A DNA stretch of 40,214 nt, from the IMG/VR virus record IMGVR_UViG_3300009159_000131, positions 1 through 40,214 of that record. One strand, written 5' to 3'. Within the stretch, counting starts at the first letter, position 1, and each line of letters opens with the position of its first letter. The stretch comes from a virus. A program made the translations under genes and the position numbers. The notes under the pieces are model-generated. The model was given only the letters and a program-made list of their open reading frames with translations, made no database searches and was not told where the DNA came from. Positions 8,400-14,222 of this stretch are shown here, one piece after another.

Positions 8400-8582
8400 T
8401 TACGCTTGCTTCCCAACCGCTGCGGTCTTTTTAAAGTCCGCTGTCACTTCGCTCTTGGTTACGTTGCCAAGAGCCTTTTCGATGGCCTCAGATACCTTCT
8501 TGCAGTGAGGGCCGGATACACCTTCGACACCGACCTTCACGTTACCGTCTTTGTCTACGCTAACGATTACTGTCTCTGCCAC
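8400..8582 (-). CDS. DUF2997-family small protein, 60 aa
   Basis: The sequence V-D-K-D-G-N-V-K-V-G-V-E-G-V-S-G-P-H-C at about 9-27 followed by a helix (K-K-V-S-E-A-I-E-K-A-L-G) matches the DUF2997 pattern: a two-strand hairpin, a G-x-x-C turn and a helix. The family often sits next to DUF1257 (Ycf35) genes, as it does here with one small gene between. The biochemical role is unknown. It begins two bases after the stop of the 78-residue gene. Confidence 0.75.
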   Translation of the reverse strand: MAETVIVSVDKDGNVKVGVEGVSGPHCKKVSEAIEKALGNVTKSEVTADFKKTAAVGKQA

Positions 8583-8834: not shown

Positions 8835-9314
8835 CTATCTTGTACAAACCAATTTTATCTCGCCGTTTTTTCCCGACTGCTCTTTGACCGCGAAGCCTTG
8901 CTTTTTCGCGTTCTTCTTTGCAACTTCCAATGCGTACATCTGCTGCAACTTTCCAATGCCCTTTTTGGCCGTGTCCGTCTCGGCAGAAACGTGATTCATC
9001 AAGCCTTGGCCGCCTGCAAAGAAATCCCATAGGAGAGCGAATCCACCCTTGGGGTTCTCGACAACCCCAATCTCGTATGCCCGTCTGCCGGTGTCGTCCT
9101 TCACGCTCAGAGCGTGGAGACACTTGCCGTACTCCTTCGGGTCGATGCCGAGCCGTTTGTAGGCCGCATCGTCCTCGTCGTAGTCGTCCATCCATCGACC
9201 GTACCAACGGAAGTTCTTTTGGTCCTTCTTGAATTCTAGCCCGCAGCGCTCGGCTGCTTTGGCTAAACAATCCAGATCTTTGATCTGGACTTCGACTGTT
9301 GCTATGTGTGAAAT
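8835..9314 (-). CDS. DUF1257/Ycf35-like protein, apparent ATT start
   Basis: The 159-residue reading begins (M)SHIATVEVQIKDLDCL, the typical start of DUF1257 (Ycf35), continues through F-R-W-Y-G-R-W near 40-46 and W-D-F-F-A-G-G-Q-G near 103-111, and ends in a helical, lysine-rich tail. The family is known from plastids, cyanobacteria and various bacteria; its function is not settled. The codon at the expected start (9314-9312) is ATT, with AAGGAG seven bases before it. No ATG, GTG or TTG lies between the in-frame TAG 11 codons upstream and this site. The next ATG (9191) would remove 41 conserved residues. Promoter module C is just upstream. Confidence 0.82.
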   Translation of the reverse strand: MSHIATVEVQIKDLDCLAKAAERCGLEFKKDQKNFRWYGRWMDDYDEDDAAYKRLGIDPKEYGKCLHALSVKDDTGRRAYEIGVVENPKGGFALLWDFFAGGQGLMNHVSAETDTAKKGIGKLQQMYALEVAKKNAKKQGFAVKEQSGKNGEIKLVCTR

Positions 9315-9714: not shown

Positions 9715-10626
9715 CTAATCCTCCAAGGTGAATTTGCGAATCGATGCGGTCGTTGTGAACTTTGCCAGCGACTCGCCCACTTCCGTCAGCTTGGCCTTAA
9801 AGTCTGCCTTGTTCGTGCCTTGCTTGAGACTCTTGACTGTGACGTCCCCGGCGAGCGACTTTGCCTTTTCAACCAGCTCGGCAAGGTCATTGTTGTCGCT
9901 GATCGACATTTCCGAGAACCGCTTGGCAAAGTCAACAAGGTGGTCAATCTTTGACTGCTTGATGATGTGCTTCTTGCCGTCCTCCTCAGACTGGTCCGTA
10001 AGCTTTTCAAGCAGCTCCGATACCATCGTGGCGAACTCCTCTTGGAGAGCCGTCTCCGCTGCGATAGCCGCTTGCTCGAACTGGGCTACGATCTTCTTCC
10101 GCTCGGCCTCAAATAGCTCTGGCGCTATCGTTTTGAGCCTTGAATCCGGTTCGATTGCTGGGTAGCTGATCGTGATGCCAAACGCGTTTCGGATGTCGAA
10201 ATCGTAGTCCGACTCAACAAACAAATCGACTAGCCGAGTTTTGGCGTCTGCAACGACATCGGGCCATCGGTCGTACACCTGATCGCATGCCTCGATCGCT
10301 TCGATCTGGCATTCCGAAATTGCCGAGTTCATCCACTCGATCTTGTCGGTTCGAATCAGGCGAACGCCGTCTTCGTACTTGACCGTCGCGGCCCGCCATA
10401 TTGCTTTGGCCTTGGTCGCTGCTTTGAATAGCGGCTTCACGAATTCCAGCTTGCGGTTCAAGAACTCGCGGGAGCCCTTGACCGAACCGGTTTCCGCGCT
10501 GAACGCCTCGGCCATTTTCTTGCGTTGGGGCTCGGTCATCTTGCGGCTGCACATCACTTGCCGAATTTCGAGCTTGCAACCGCTGGTCAAGTTCTTGAGC
10601 TTCGCGCCTAAATCTTGTTCTGCCAT
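9715..10626 (-). CDS. hypothetical helical protein, possibly DUF3150-like, 303 aa
   Basis: A mostly helical protein without catalytic motifs. The layout (long N-terminal helices, a central W-P-D-V-V-A-D-A-K-T-R-L-V-D-L-F stretch, an I-S-Y-P-A-I segment, then long charged helices) recalls DUF3150-type phage and integrative-element proteins that accompany AAA ATPases. This is a resemblance, not a firm match. ATG 10626 begins with M-A-E-Q-D. It is preceded by the degenerate module D and followed after three bases by the paralogue gene. Confidence 0.6.
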   Translation of the reverse strand: MAEQDLGAKLKNLTSGCKLEIRQVMCSRKMTEPQRKKMAEAFSAETGSVKGSREFLNRKLEFVKPLFKAATKAKAIWRAATVKYEDGVRLIRTDKIEWMNSAISECQIEAIEACDQVYDRWPDVVADAKTRLVDLFVESDYDFDIRNAFGITISYPAIEPDSRLKTIAPELFEAERKKIVAQFEQAAIAAETALQEEFATMVSELLEKLTDQSEEDGKKHIIKQSKIDHLVDFAKRFSEMSISDNNDLAELVEKAKSLAGDVTVKSLKQGTNKADFKAKLTEVGESLAKFTTTASIRKFTLED

Positions 10627-10948: not shown

Positions 10949-11352
10949 ATTTCCACGTATCCGGGCACGTCTTCAATTCGAGCTACTCGACGGCTTGGTA
11001 ATCGATTGGATTCGTAAAATTCCAATCGATTGTAGATGCGCTTGTTCCATTCGAAGTAACGAGTTCTGATGTCGTTTTTCTGCATCCAGTCCTTAAACTG
11101 ATTTACCACTGTGAAATAGGGCATGTCATTTGGAACCTTGCGAGCAATTGAATCTGCAAGGCTTCCCGAAATCGTAATGTCGTCAAGAGTTACGTTATTT
11201 GCACGAATCCAACGTTTCGATTGGCATTTGTCCAAAAGCTGATTCAACTCGATTTCACGCTTGTTAAGTTTTGTAATCTGCGATTCGATTTCGCTGAGTT
11301 CTTTTGCGAATTCATGTTCGCGAGCAAATAGTTCATGGTCTGTCACAATCAA
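10945..11352 (-). CDS. hypothetical protein, 135 aa, paralogue of the gene at 9385-9711
   Basis: It has an N-terminal coiled coil (about 8-45), then the domain shared with the 108-residue protein: W-I-R-A-N-N-V-T-L-D, then F-K-D-W-M-Q-K, then Y-F-E-W-N-K-R-I-Y. It carries about 25 extra C-terminal residues. Function is unknown. It overlaps the truncated helicase by four bases (ATGA) at its start. Confidence 0.75.
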   Translation of the reverse strand: MIVTDHELFAREHEFAKELSEIESQITKLNKREIELNQLLDKCQSKRWIRANNVTLDDITISGSLADSIARKVPNDMPYFTVVNQFKDWMQKNDIRTRYFEWNKRIYNRLEFYESNRLPSRRVARIEDVPGYVEI

Positions 11353-12068
11353 ACCTCTGCTAACTGGTAAGCCGACGACTGAAATAGGATCTGCTCACGC
11401 AAAAACGTTTTGCGTTGTGCAATCAGCTTCTCCGCTTCCTCTTGCTGCTTGGTTGCTTGCTTTTGTCCTTTGTCGTCCAGCTGCCTGAAGAACCTCTTGA
11501 GCATCTCACTGTTGTTCAGTTCTCCGATTGCTTCCGAGGTTGTTCCCAGCTCGACATAATCATTCGGGCTTGGAGTCGCAGTTGCCATCAGCCGATATTG
11601 GAGCTTCGACGCAAACCGAGTGATCTGCTTTTGTGTTGTGCCTCCAAGCGATTTCAGGATGCTTGACTCGTCGCAAATGATCCCGCTGAAATCTAGTGGA
11701 TTGAACTTTTGCAGTTGCTCATAGTTTGTCACCCAAATGCACTTAGACTTGTCCCACTCGCCATGCCTTGATCGCTGAGCATCTATGCCAAACTTCTCCG
11801 CCTCGCGTATCATCTGCGTTCCAACCGCGATTGGAGTCAACAACAGTACTGGCTTGTTTGTTTTGCGAACTACTTGTTCACCCCATGAGAGTTCACAAAT
11901 TGATTTGCCTAGCCCACAATCTGCAAACAGTGCTGACCGACCGTGACGGCAAGCAGTTTCCACAATGTGATTTTGAAAAGGAAACAACTTGTCCGTTAGC
12001 TTTTTTGGCTTGAAGCCACTGTCACGCGTAAGTTGTGACTTTTCTTCGATAAATTTTGCGTAGTTCAT
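11349..12068 (-). CDS. SF2 (SNF2-like) helicase, RecA1 domain only
   Basis: The 239 residues hold a Q-motif-like L-F-P-F-Q at 28-32, motif I D-C-G-L-G-K-S at 50-56, motif II D-E-S-S at 133-136 and motif III T-A-T-P-S-P-N-D at 163-170. These match phage helicases of about 450-650 residues. The second RecA domain with motifs IV-VI is missing; the protein stops after R-F-F-R-Q and a Gln/Lys-rich helix. It cannot be a full translocase unless another protein supplies the second lobe. No frame downstream continues it. AGGAG eight bases before ATG 12068 and module E upstream indicate it is expressed, so it may be a kept fragment rather than a dead gene. Confidence 0.8.
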   Translation of the reverse strand: MNYAKFIEEKSQLTRDSGFKPKKLTDKLFPFQNHIVETACRHGRSALFADCGLGKSICELSWGEQVVRKTNKPVLLLTPIAVGTQMIREAEKFGIDAQRSRHGEWDKSKCIWVTNYEQLQKFNPLDFSGIICDESSILKSLGGTTQKQITRFASKLQYRLMATATPSPNDYVELGTTSEAIGELNNSEMLKRFFRQLDDKGQKQATKQQEEAEKLIAQRKTFLREQILFQSSAYQLAEV

Positions 12069-12084: not shown

Positions 12085-12115
12085 ACCTAAGCCCGAAAAC
12101 TTGCCAGACGTTCTT
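12085..12115 (-). promoter_or_regulatory. promoter module E (AAGAAC, 12 bases, TTCGGGCTTAGGT)
   Basis: The box at 12097-12085 is exact; AAGAAC at 12115-12110 is at the fixed 12-base distance. It overlaps the last codon of the AAA+ gene and precedes the truncated helicase by 17 bases. Confidence 0.68.
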
Positions 12116-13610
12116 ACGCCTTTTGAAACCTTCGGCCCGTTGCCGCCTTGCTGGCCTCTGGCTTGGTGCGTTGGTAAGTTCCTGGGTAGCTTGCCGATAG
12201 GAAACGTCCCTCGGCTCCTGCTCGCAACTTTTCGATTGAGTCCGCAGCATGCTTCGATACTGGGACGATGTACTCGGCGGCTTCGCTTGGCTCGATCTCA
12301 AGATTGTGGGCAAACTCGCAACACGTTTCGATCTCTGCCCCTGTCCACTCGTTCGCGTGGAGGGCCTTGGTTTGCTCGATCGTCAATCTAAACTTTTCTC
12401 GATAGATTTTCCAAATCTCGTTTCGTTCCTCCAAGTCGGGCAAGTCAAAGAACCATGTTCCGAGCTTGAATCGACGCTTGAGTTCGGGAGGCAAGACGGA
12501 CAAAGAATTGCAGGTCGCAATCCAAAGTGTCTTGCCACCGCTTACCGCGTTGATGACCTTCAGGGCTTCTCGTATCTGTTGCTCACTTTGACCAACTAGC
12601 GAACCCTTGGCTGCTCCGAGGTCAAGCTGAATTGTCGGAATGCTTTGATCGCTTCCGCACGCTTTGGCTGCTGCCGACTTCGAAGCGCCGGGAGGTCCGA
12701 CCAGAATACAGCCCGTCGCCCGATTGTCCTGCATCCATGAAAGCAGAGTTCCTACTTGGTCCTGGCTTGTTCCGCTCATGTCGGTACCCGCAGCACCAAG
12801 GGCCTTCTCGATCTCGTCGATAAACACAATCGCGTTAATGTTGCTCTTGCCTGCGATAACCTGTGCGATGAACTTCTTGAACTGAGGAATCCCGCCGATC
12901 TTGTCCATGCTGTTGGACCCCGAAACAACTTGGAGAGCCGGAGTCTCGTTGATCTTTTTTTCCTTCGACTCCCAAAGGCCACCCATTGAAAGACCGTGCT
13001 TGTCGATTGCAAGGCTTGCAAGGTTCTCCGCTGCGAACGCTGTGACGCCAAGAGCCGCACATCCTGCCGCGTCTCGCACGTCTTGGCTTGCTTCGATCTC
13101 AGCCGCATCGCAAACGCTTCCGATGACTTGCGATAGTTGCTTGGAGTCTGGCAGTGGCTCGATGATGGCGATTACGTCTTGCTGCAATTCGACTGGCAAC
13201 CGACCGCCCGAGCCCATCAAGACCAACATTTTTTGGCCGCTCTTGAAAATGTCGCGGAGGTTCCAGATCGCTTGAACGACCGTGAATTGATCCAAGAATT
13301 GGTGTGCGTTGTGGATCAGAATTACCATCGGGAGCGACTGATCGACTTTTGCCAAATCGACCAACAGTTCCAAGGGGTTGCCAACGTACTCGTCTTGCCC
13401 CTTTAGATTACCGGTGGAAGTCTTGGGGGTGAAAACGTACCATCCTCGAACGCAGTCCCAAGCAACGATGTTCACTTGCTCTTGGAATTTTGCCGTGGCA
13501 AACTCCGCAACAATAGCTTGATTTGTCGCCCCTGGATCGCTCGTCTCGAACGACACCAACGGAACCCCAACCCGATATGCTTTGACCAGCTTTGCGTAGA
13601 CCGACAACAT
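12114..13610 (-). CDS. Ycf46-like AAA+ ATPase with permuted core (Walker B before Walker A)
   Basis: The N-terminal 200 residues resemble the degenerate ATPase domain of Ycf46 proteins (V-I-L-I-H-N-A-H-Q-F-L-D at 96-107; L-P-V-E-L-Q-Q-D-V near 138-146). The C-terminal half is an AAA+ domain in unusual order: Walker B I-V-F-I-D-E-I-E-K-A at 261-270, then L-L-S-W-M-Q-D-N, then Walker A G-P-P-G-A-S-K-S at 305-312, then S-L-V-G-Q-S-E at 337-343, sensor 1 W-I-A-T-C-N at 363-368, and E-L-K-R-R-F at 376-381 as possible arginine fingers. In standard AAA+ proteins Walker B follows Walker A. All catalytic residues are present, so it should be active. The role is unknown; such ATPases remodel or load other proteins. 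Module F precedes it. Confidence 0.88.
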   Translation of the reverse strand: MLSVYAKLVKAYRVGVPLVSFETSDPGATNQAIVAEFATAKFQEQVNIVAWDCVRGWYVFTPKTSTGNLKGQDEYVGNPLELLVDLAKVDQSLPMVILIHNAHQFLDQFTVVQAIWNLRDIFKSGQKMLVLMGSGGRLPVELQQDVIAIIEPLPDSKQLSQVIGSVCDAAEIEASQDVRDAAGCAALGVTAFAAENLASLAIDKHGLSMGGLWESKEKKINETPALQVVSGSNSMDKIGGIPQFKKFIAQVIAGKSNINAIVFIDEIEKALGAAGTDMSGTSQDQVGTLLSWMQDNRATGCILVGPPGASKSAAAKACGSDQSIPTIQLDLGAAKGSLVGQSEQQIREALKVINAVSGGKTLWIATCNSLSVLPPELKRRFKLGTWFFDLPDLEERNEIWKIYREKFRLTIEQTKALHANEWTGAEIETCCEFAHNLEIEPSEAAEYIVPVSKHAADSIEKLRAGAEGRFLSASYPGTYQRTKPEASKAATGRRFQKA

Positions 13611-13796: not shown

Positions 13797-14222
13797 CTAG
13801 GTTTTTGGAATTATCAAATTTGCGTTTTCTACAACTGCCGAAAGTTCCGCATCGGTCCAATATTGTCGAGCTGATTTTCCGTCGTATCGCTTTGCAAGTC
13901 CCATCCGAATCAGATACTCGGATAGTGATTGATCTGGATGTTCGCGGTCGATGAACGTCCCAACGCTTCGACCGTACATGTCGAGGTCCTTTGACAGCCA
14001 TCGCAAACGGTACTTGGTTTGGCAAATTGGAGTCAGCCAAAGTTCAACGACTTTGGCGACTAACTTTCCTGCGCTTGTATTTTTCTCTGGCGCGTCAACG
14101 CCTTCTAATCGGGTTGTGATTCCTTGGGTCGTTCTCCACCCACGGTCAAGAATTAGCTTCTGCGTGTCGCCGTCAACGACTTCGAACGATAGGACAGGGC
14201 AGTCAAAGGTTTCTATACGCAT
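13797..14222 (-). CDS. SNase-like (thermonuclease-family) nuclease
   Basis: A 141-residue protein with the staphylococcal nuclease pattern: V-D-G-D-T at 16-20, R-L-E-G-V-D-A-P-E at 38-46 and D-M-Y-G-R at 81-85, then L-I-R-M-G-L-A near 104-110. These supply the calcium-binding Asp residues, the two catalytic Arg and the general-base Glu of the family, so phosphodiester cleavage of DNA or RNA is expected. No signal peptide is seen, so it acts in the cytoplasm, for example in host DNA breakdown. It overlaps the zinc-protein gene by ten bases. Confidence 0.85.
   Translation of the reverse strand: MRIETFDCPVLSFEVVDGDTQKLILDRGWRTTQGITTRLEGVDAPEKNTSAGKLVAKVVELWLTPICQTKYRLRWLSKDLDMYGRSVGTFIDREHPDQSLSEYLIRMGLAKRYDGKSARQYWTDAELSAVVENANLIIPKT

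Follow-up and report, generated by a model that had tools for sequence, protein, structure and literature searches.

Can an AAA+ motor work when its Walker B unit stands ahead of its Walker A unit? AAA+ proteins are among the most-studied molecular motors and the order of their motifs is treated as fixed. An open reading frame in the 40,214-nucleotide stretch of viral DNA analysed here (IMG/VR virus record IMGVR_UViG_3300009159_000131; hereafter the window) departs from that order. The frame, read from the minus strand (12114-13610), encodes 498 amino acids. It reads, without a break, Walker B (IVFIDEIEKA, residues 261-270, 12801-12830), Walker A (GPPGASKS, residues 305-312, 12675-12698), SLVGQSE (residues 337-343), sensor 1 (WIATCN, residues 363-368, 12507-12524), the arginine-finger box (RRF, residues 379-381, 12468-12476) and WTGAEI (residues 422-427, 12330-12347), which residue conservation in 76 relatives places in the classic-AAA sensor 2 region. 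A first-pass annotation had listed coordinates and residue numbers for the motifs without stating the strand, and all of them proved correct when re-read in the frame. The classic linear order, beta1-alpha1-beta2-alpha2-beta3-alpha3-beta4-beta5, is not kept: beta3-alpha3 comes ahead of beta1.

Block order in the window ATPase and its relatives

Pfam, PHROG 8638 and AlphaFold2 identify the whole frame as a permuted Ycf46-like AAA+ ATPase. Pfam yields partial AAA matches only, and PHROG 8638, the best PHROG, matches in four stretches. While this profile aligns to Aeromonas phage HJ05 as a single collinear piece (12-552), its positions in the window protein, in locus L002 and in Tunturiibacter phage Tunturi_3 run in the order 16-287, 365-406, 307-363 and 406-548, the end points of the pieces differing by a few positions among the three. 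A collinear match to the whole Ycf46-like family profile thus fails, and the out-of-order pieces indicate that two adjacent blocks, A and B, have been exactly exchanged.

Read along the protein, block N (residues 1-230, 12921-13610) corresponds to the N-terminal domain found in Ycf46-like proteins; it follows the canonical profile in order (positions 16-287) and is covered by full-length Foldseek matches to tandem AAA proteins. A linker with an IGG motif and helix alpha0 follows (residues 231-258, 12837-12920; G240 invariant in all 76 relatives, helix at 242-253). The moved beta3-alpha3 unit, block B (residues 259-297, 12720-12836), corresponds to profile positions 365-406 and stands before block A, beta1-alpha1-beta2-alpha2 (residues 298-359, 12534-12719), which corresponds to positions 307-363 (strands 299-304 and 326-329, helix 341-357). 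Block C, from beta4 to the C-terminus (residues 360-498, 12117-12533; profile 406-548), carries sensor 1, the arginine box and the helical lid, and is collinear to its end with canonical relatives. Both termini are in place and the inner unit alone is permuted, so the protein as a whole has not been circularly permuted.

Block models gave the same picture across the family. The order N-B-A-C was found in 76/76 permuted proteins, while 77 of 78 canonical proteins (bacterial, plasmid and cultured-phage relatives) read N-A-B-C and the 78th showed A-B only. With the canonical block order restored, the mean best-domain score against the canonical HMM climbed to 325 bits from 105. The score increased in every one of the 76 permuted proteins (by 220 bits on average and never by less than 155), and in each of them the restored order was the top-scoring of the six block orders tried. 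When the permuted and Planctomycetes profiles are aligned with each other (hhalign), they stay collinear for 438 columns (E 6.5e-90), including the N-terminal domain. The exceptions are block B, inserted ahead of Walker A, and the canonical beta3-alpha3, for which the alignment opens a gap behind alpha2. Block B itself is 59-64% identical to the canonical Planctomycetes blocks. Profile mapping and relatives therefore bear out the first-pass reading of Walker B ahead of Walker A in one frame and, with the trees and structure model presented below, its proposal that in a Ycf46-type ATPase beta3-alpha3 moved in front of beta1.

Such an order might instead be an assembly artefact, or reflect a chance DEIEK in the linker with the true Walker B elsewhere. 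The first-pass annotation had suggested a search for DEIEK shortly before a P-loop, and when IMG/VR DNA was scanned for the motifs alone (DEIEK, then G.[PA]G..K[ST] 33-42 residues on), 102 stretches came up. Among the 81 that were read, 79 belong to the permuted ATPase family. The other two show that the spacing does arise by chance: L200 and L212 encode PhoH-like proteins with a coincidental DEIEK stretch ahead of the P-loop. Against an artefact, however, the order recurs in many independent contigs and in the complete isolate genome of Tunturi_3; against a chance motif, no other part of the permuted protein matches the beta3 positions of the canonical profile; and against a hidden second Walker B, the gap between alpha2 and beta4 has no residues for another beta3. 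Contigs, profile and model together refute these explanations, whose probability we regard as practically nil.

Predicted fold and catalytic residues

The AlphaFold2 model of the permuted ATPase, built from 67 aligned sequences (the window and IMG/VR sequences only), has a mean pLDDT of 93 and a pTM of 0.87. Its elements are alpha0 (242-253), beta3 (260-264), alpha3 (281-295), beta1 (299-304), alpha1 (311-317), beta2 (326-329), alpha2 (341-357), beta4 (361-367) and beta5 (385-387). A weaker model of a canonical Planctomycetes protein (pLDDT 74), used for element order alone, runs beta1, alpha1, beta2, alpha2, beta3, alpha3, beta4. Because residues 358-360 alone separate alpha2 from beta4 in the permuted protein, no other strand can replace beta3. 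An acidic pair after residue 343 in the Walker B position, the finding that the first-pass annotation had named as fatal to its reading, is thereby excluded, the more so as D265 and E266 are present in all 76 relatives.

In the AAA+ sheet, with strand order 5-1-4-3-2, beta3 lies beside beta4 and beta4 beside beta1. The Walker B strand should thus lie beyond the sensor 1 strand, on the side away from Walker A, and not between the Walker A and sensor 1 strands as first predicted. On this established topology the new connections join neighbouring strands, so the fold can stay unchanged: the chain would enter at beta3, run through alpha3 into beta1 and come back to beta4 after alpha2, so that with three rewired loops (linker-beta3, alpha3-beta1 and alpha2-beta4) the sheet and the ATP site would remain as they are.

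The same arrangement could also be read as a domain swap, in which each subunit of the ring lends its beta3-alpha3 to the core of its neighbour and the site is rebuilt in trans. Ring AAA+ proteins do share sites between subunits, and beta3 sits directly after a flexible linker behind alpha0, as a swapped element might. However, confidence in the monomer model is high across almost all of the core, beta3-alpha3 included, falling to 80 only around residues 271-280, and the connecting loops are short, with three residues leading from alpha3 (281-295) to beta1 (299-304). A swap between subunits is accordingly very improbable, and we favour a core completed within one chain.

Searched with Foldseek against the PDB, the model matches tandem AAA proteins first and over its full length (Rix7, NVL, p97), and against BFVD ycf46-named phage proteins come on top. 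The matches to tandem AAA proteins suggest that the N-terminal domain derives from an AAA module, and block N is probably a degenerate AAA-like first domain ahead of the active permuted module, as judged from the model.

Eleven positions are invariant in 76/76 relatives: D265, E266, E268, K269, G305, G308, K311, G340, T366, N368 and R380. They include a Walker A P-loop with its catalytic lysine (G305, G308, K311), a Walker B of the hhhhDE type preceded by strand 260-264, and the polar sensor 1 residue N368 on beta4. In the arginine box R379 is present in 71/76, and the two residues that part the arginines in canonical relatives are absent. Position 310, before the Walker A lysine, is alanine in 39 relatives, glycine in 30 and serine in 7, the window protein having serine. 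MCM and RavA ATPases also tolerate a residue other than glycine there. The first-pass statement that all key residues remain thus holds for D265, E266, K311, N368 and R380, but not for Gly310, replaced in 46/76, nor for the shortened arginine box.

Those two changes would be compatible with a rearranged domain that folds and binds nucleotide or partners without hydrolysing ATP. Yet the invariance of D265, E266, K311, N368 and R380 would be unexpected in an inactive enzyme, and the Walker A glycine is kept in 30/76. We therefore consider a pseudo-ATPase improbable. The invariant catalytic residues and the confident model support the first-pass view of a working rearranged fold as opposed to decay, and the protein is very probably a functional AAA+ remodelling ATPase of Ycf46-like descent whose core carries a non-circular block permutation. 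At the sequence level, the beta3-alpha3 unit with Walker B now comes first and the beta1-alpha1-beta2-alpha2 unit with Walker A second, and the N-terminal domain, beta4 with sensor 1, the arginine box and the helical lid keep their places. Such an enzyme would likely form a ring and remodel a protein client with ATP.

Distribution, origin and gene neighbourhood

IMG/VR holds at least 274 relatives, of which the best 80 were retrieved, and the permuted-type relatives that were read have an identical block order throughout. Where a regular expression left relatives unresolved, representatives were read or the block models decided. The GAY version of the motif pattern occurs in 84/86 permuted loci and in 0/72 canonical loci. 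When about 85,000 species genomes of prokaryotes were scanned, 80 loci came up, eight of them permuted (L093-L100), from Armatimonadetes, Bryobacterales, Nitrospirales and Myxococcales MAGs; at least three of these (L095, L097, L098) have phage-like neighbours, among them helicases, an Erf annealing protein, an integrase and a ribonucleotide reductase. The remaining cellular relatives that were read, Planctomycetes included, are all canonical (in L149, for example, Walker A is at 309 and Walker B at 366), as are the relative on a Candidatus Manganitrophus plasmid and those in the cultured phages HJ05, JP1, L338C, RcTiptonus, SM1, DLP5 and Javan368. Within 50,697 phage records the permuted form was found in Tunturi_3 alone. 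This distribution across phage, plasmid and cellular genomes indicates a phage-dominated clade. The window itself encodes a helicase, a ParB-like protein, an Erf annealing protein, exonuclease VIII and a head maturation protease, a content that most likely makes the contig a tailed phage. Between 20565 and 29479 it also contains four large frames (437, 591, 412 and 719 aa) without a PHROG match, possibly unrecognised structural genes.

In a quick tree of the restored sequences (SH-aLRT support, no bootstrap), the 32 permuted rows form one group with support of 100, sister to the canonical Planctomycetes proteins (97), with Manganitrophus next when all blocks are used. The tree built from the unmoved N and C blocks only recovers the permuted group (100) and its pairing with Planctomycetes (98). 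The simplest reading of these sequence comparisons is that the permuted form has a single origin. The permutation probably arose once, and as a route we infer that the segment from beta1 to alpha3 was probably duplicated in tandem, after which copy one would have lost its first half and copy two its second; the block models found no duplicated block, and no duplication intermediate, among the 76 permuted and 78 canonical proteins.

The neighbouring genes are those frequent around Ycf46-like proteins, although they do not strictly define them. On the minus strand the window carries a 303-aa partner gene of the DUF3150 family (9715-10626; its relatives hit Pfam DUF3150 in 6/22), a DUF1257 (Ycf35) gene (8835-9191; Pfam 4.1e-6) and a DUF2997 gene (8400-8582; Pfam 4.5e-15). 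By rough counts, made with iterative searches over loci of unequal length, 85/90 permuted and 29/72 canonical loci have a relative of the DUF3150 gene close to the ATPase; the corresponding figures are 47/90 and 46/72 for DUF1257, and 51/90 and 51/72 for DUF2997. The four-gene cassette of ATPase, DUF3150, DUF1257/Ycf35 and DUF2997 is common to phages, plasmid and Planctomycetes, with varying gene order. For cyanobacteria, a gene cluster consisting of DUF2997, DUF1257 (ycf35) and a ferredoxin gene, fed7, has been listed (PMC4284462).

Since the cassette is found on both the permuted and the canonical side, it is probably older than the rearrangement, and permuted and canonical ATPases probably share one task, the ATP-driven remodelling of a client with partners. 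The DUF3150, DUF1257 and DUF2997 products would be the likely partners in that remodelling. Searched against the PDB, the profiles of DUF3150 and DUF1257 gave no useful match. A defence role was considered and is unsupported, as PADLOC gives partial IetA matches only, within part of the AAA domain. A short SNF2-like helicase gene (11349-12068, 239 aa) lies directly downstream of the ATPase, with similar genes in 3/90 permuted loci, and a staphylococcal-nuclease-like protein (SNase domain) is encoded just upstream (13797-14222).

Searches of openly accessible papers turned up no description of an AAA+ ATPase with a permuted core, and no PHROG family represents the permuted form: the canonical 8638 gives the strongest PHROG match among the scanned members, all 68 of which hit it. 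This is apparently an undescribed, phage-dominated variant of the Ycf46-like family with a non-circularly permuted core. Taken globally, we think it likely that the permuted proteins are a natural, phage-dominated AAA+ clade with the Walker B unit ahead of Walker A, of a single origin from an ancestor shared with Planctomycetes Ycf46-like ATPases, acting as an active motor and not described before. Profile libraries rely on motif order, and both Pfam AAA and PHROG 8638 match the protein in pieces only; the ATPase marks a phage gene family under-annotated by collinear profiles and ties phages to the Ycf46, Ycf35, DUF2997 and DUF3150 genes.

Comparison with known systems

The closest canonical counterparts are the Planctomycetes Ycf46-like ATPases (L101-L124; L114 is from Rhodopirellula solitaria). 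They form the sister clade, have the same N-terminal domain and share the C-terminal lid and tail (WTGAEI..CC, VPV, GR.LSA, G.Y). Their loci hold the same DUF1257, DUF2997 and DUF3150 neighbours in a cassette order of their own, DUF1257-DUF2997-ATPase-DUF3150. They differ in having Walker A before Walker B, and show 26-31% identity (tblastn). Phage proteins that are Ycf46-named or Ycf46-like (PHROG 8638; Aeromonas HJ05, Pseudomonas SM1, Agrobacterium JP1) are full-length homologues, all in canonical order. The one relative found with the same permutation among the 50,697 phage records is Tunturi_3 gp103 (XOB77284.1), which is 34-35% identical and annotated as 'ATPase' only; its Walker A reads GVPGVSKS, its DUF2997 and DUF3150-like genes lie at greater distance, and no DUF1257 gene was found in the stretch around gp103.

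The best PDB fold matches, p97/Cdc48, Rix7, NVL and AFG2, are alike in the P-loop, sensor 1 and GAE/GAD region, but have two canonical AAA modules in canonical order and are about 12-14% identical when the folds are aligned. Circularly permuted GTPases of the YlqF/RsgA type are P-loop NTPases that remain functional with a changed motif order. Theirs is a true circular permutation of the GTPase fold, whereas the window ATPase has an internal swap with unchanged termini. A widespread family with such a swapped core would mean that the AAA+ fold tolerates non-circular rewiring, and offers a direct test of the connections that couple the ATP site, sensor 1 and the pore loops.
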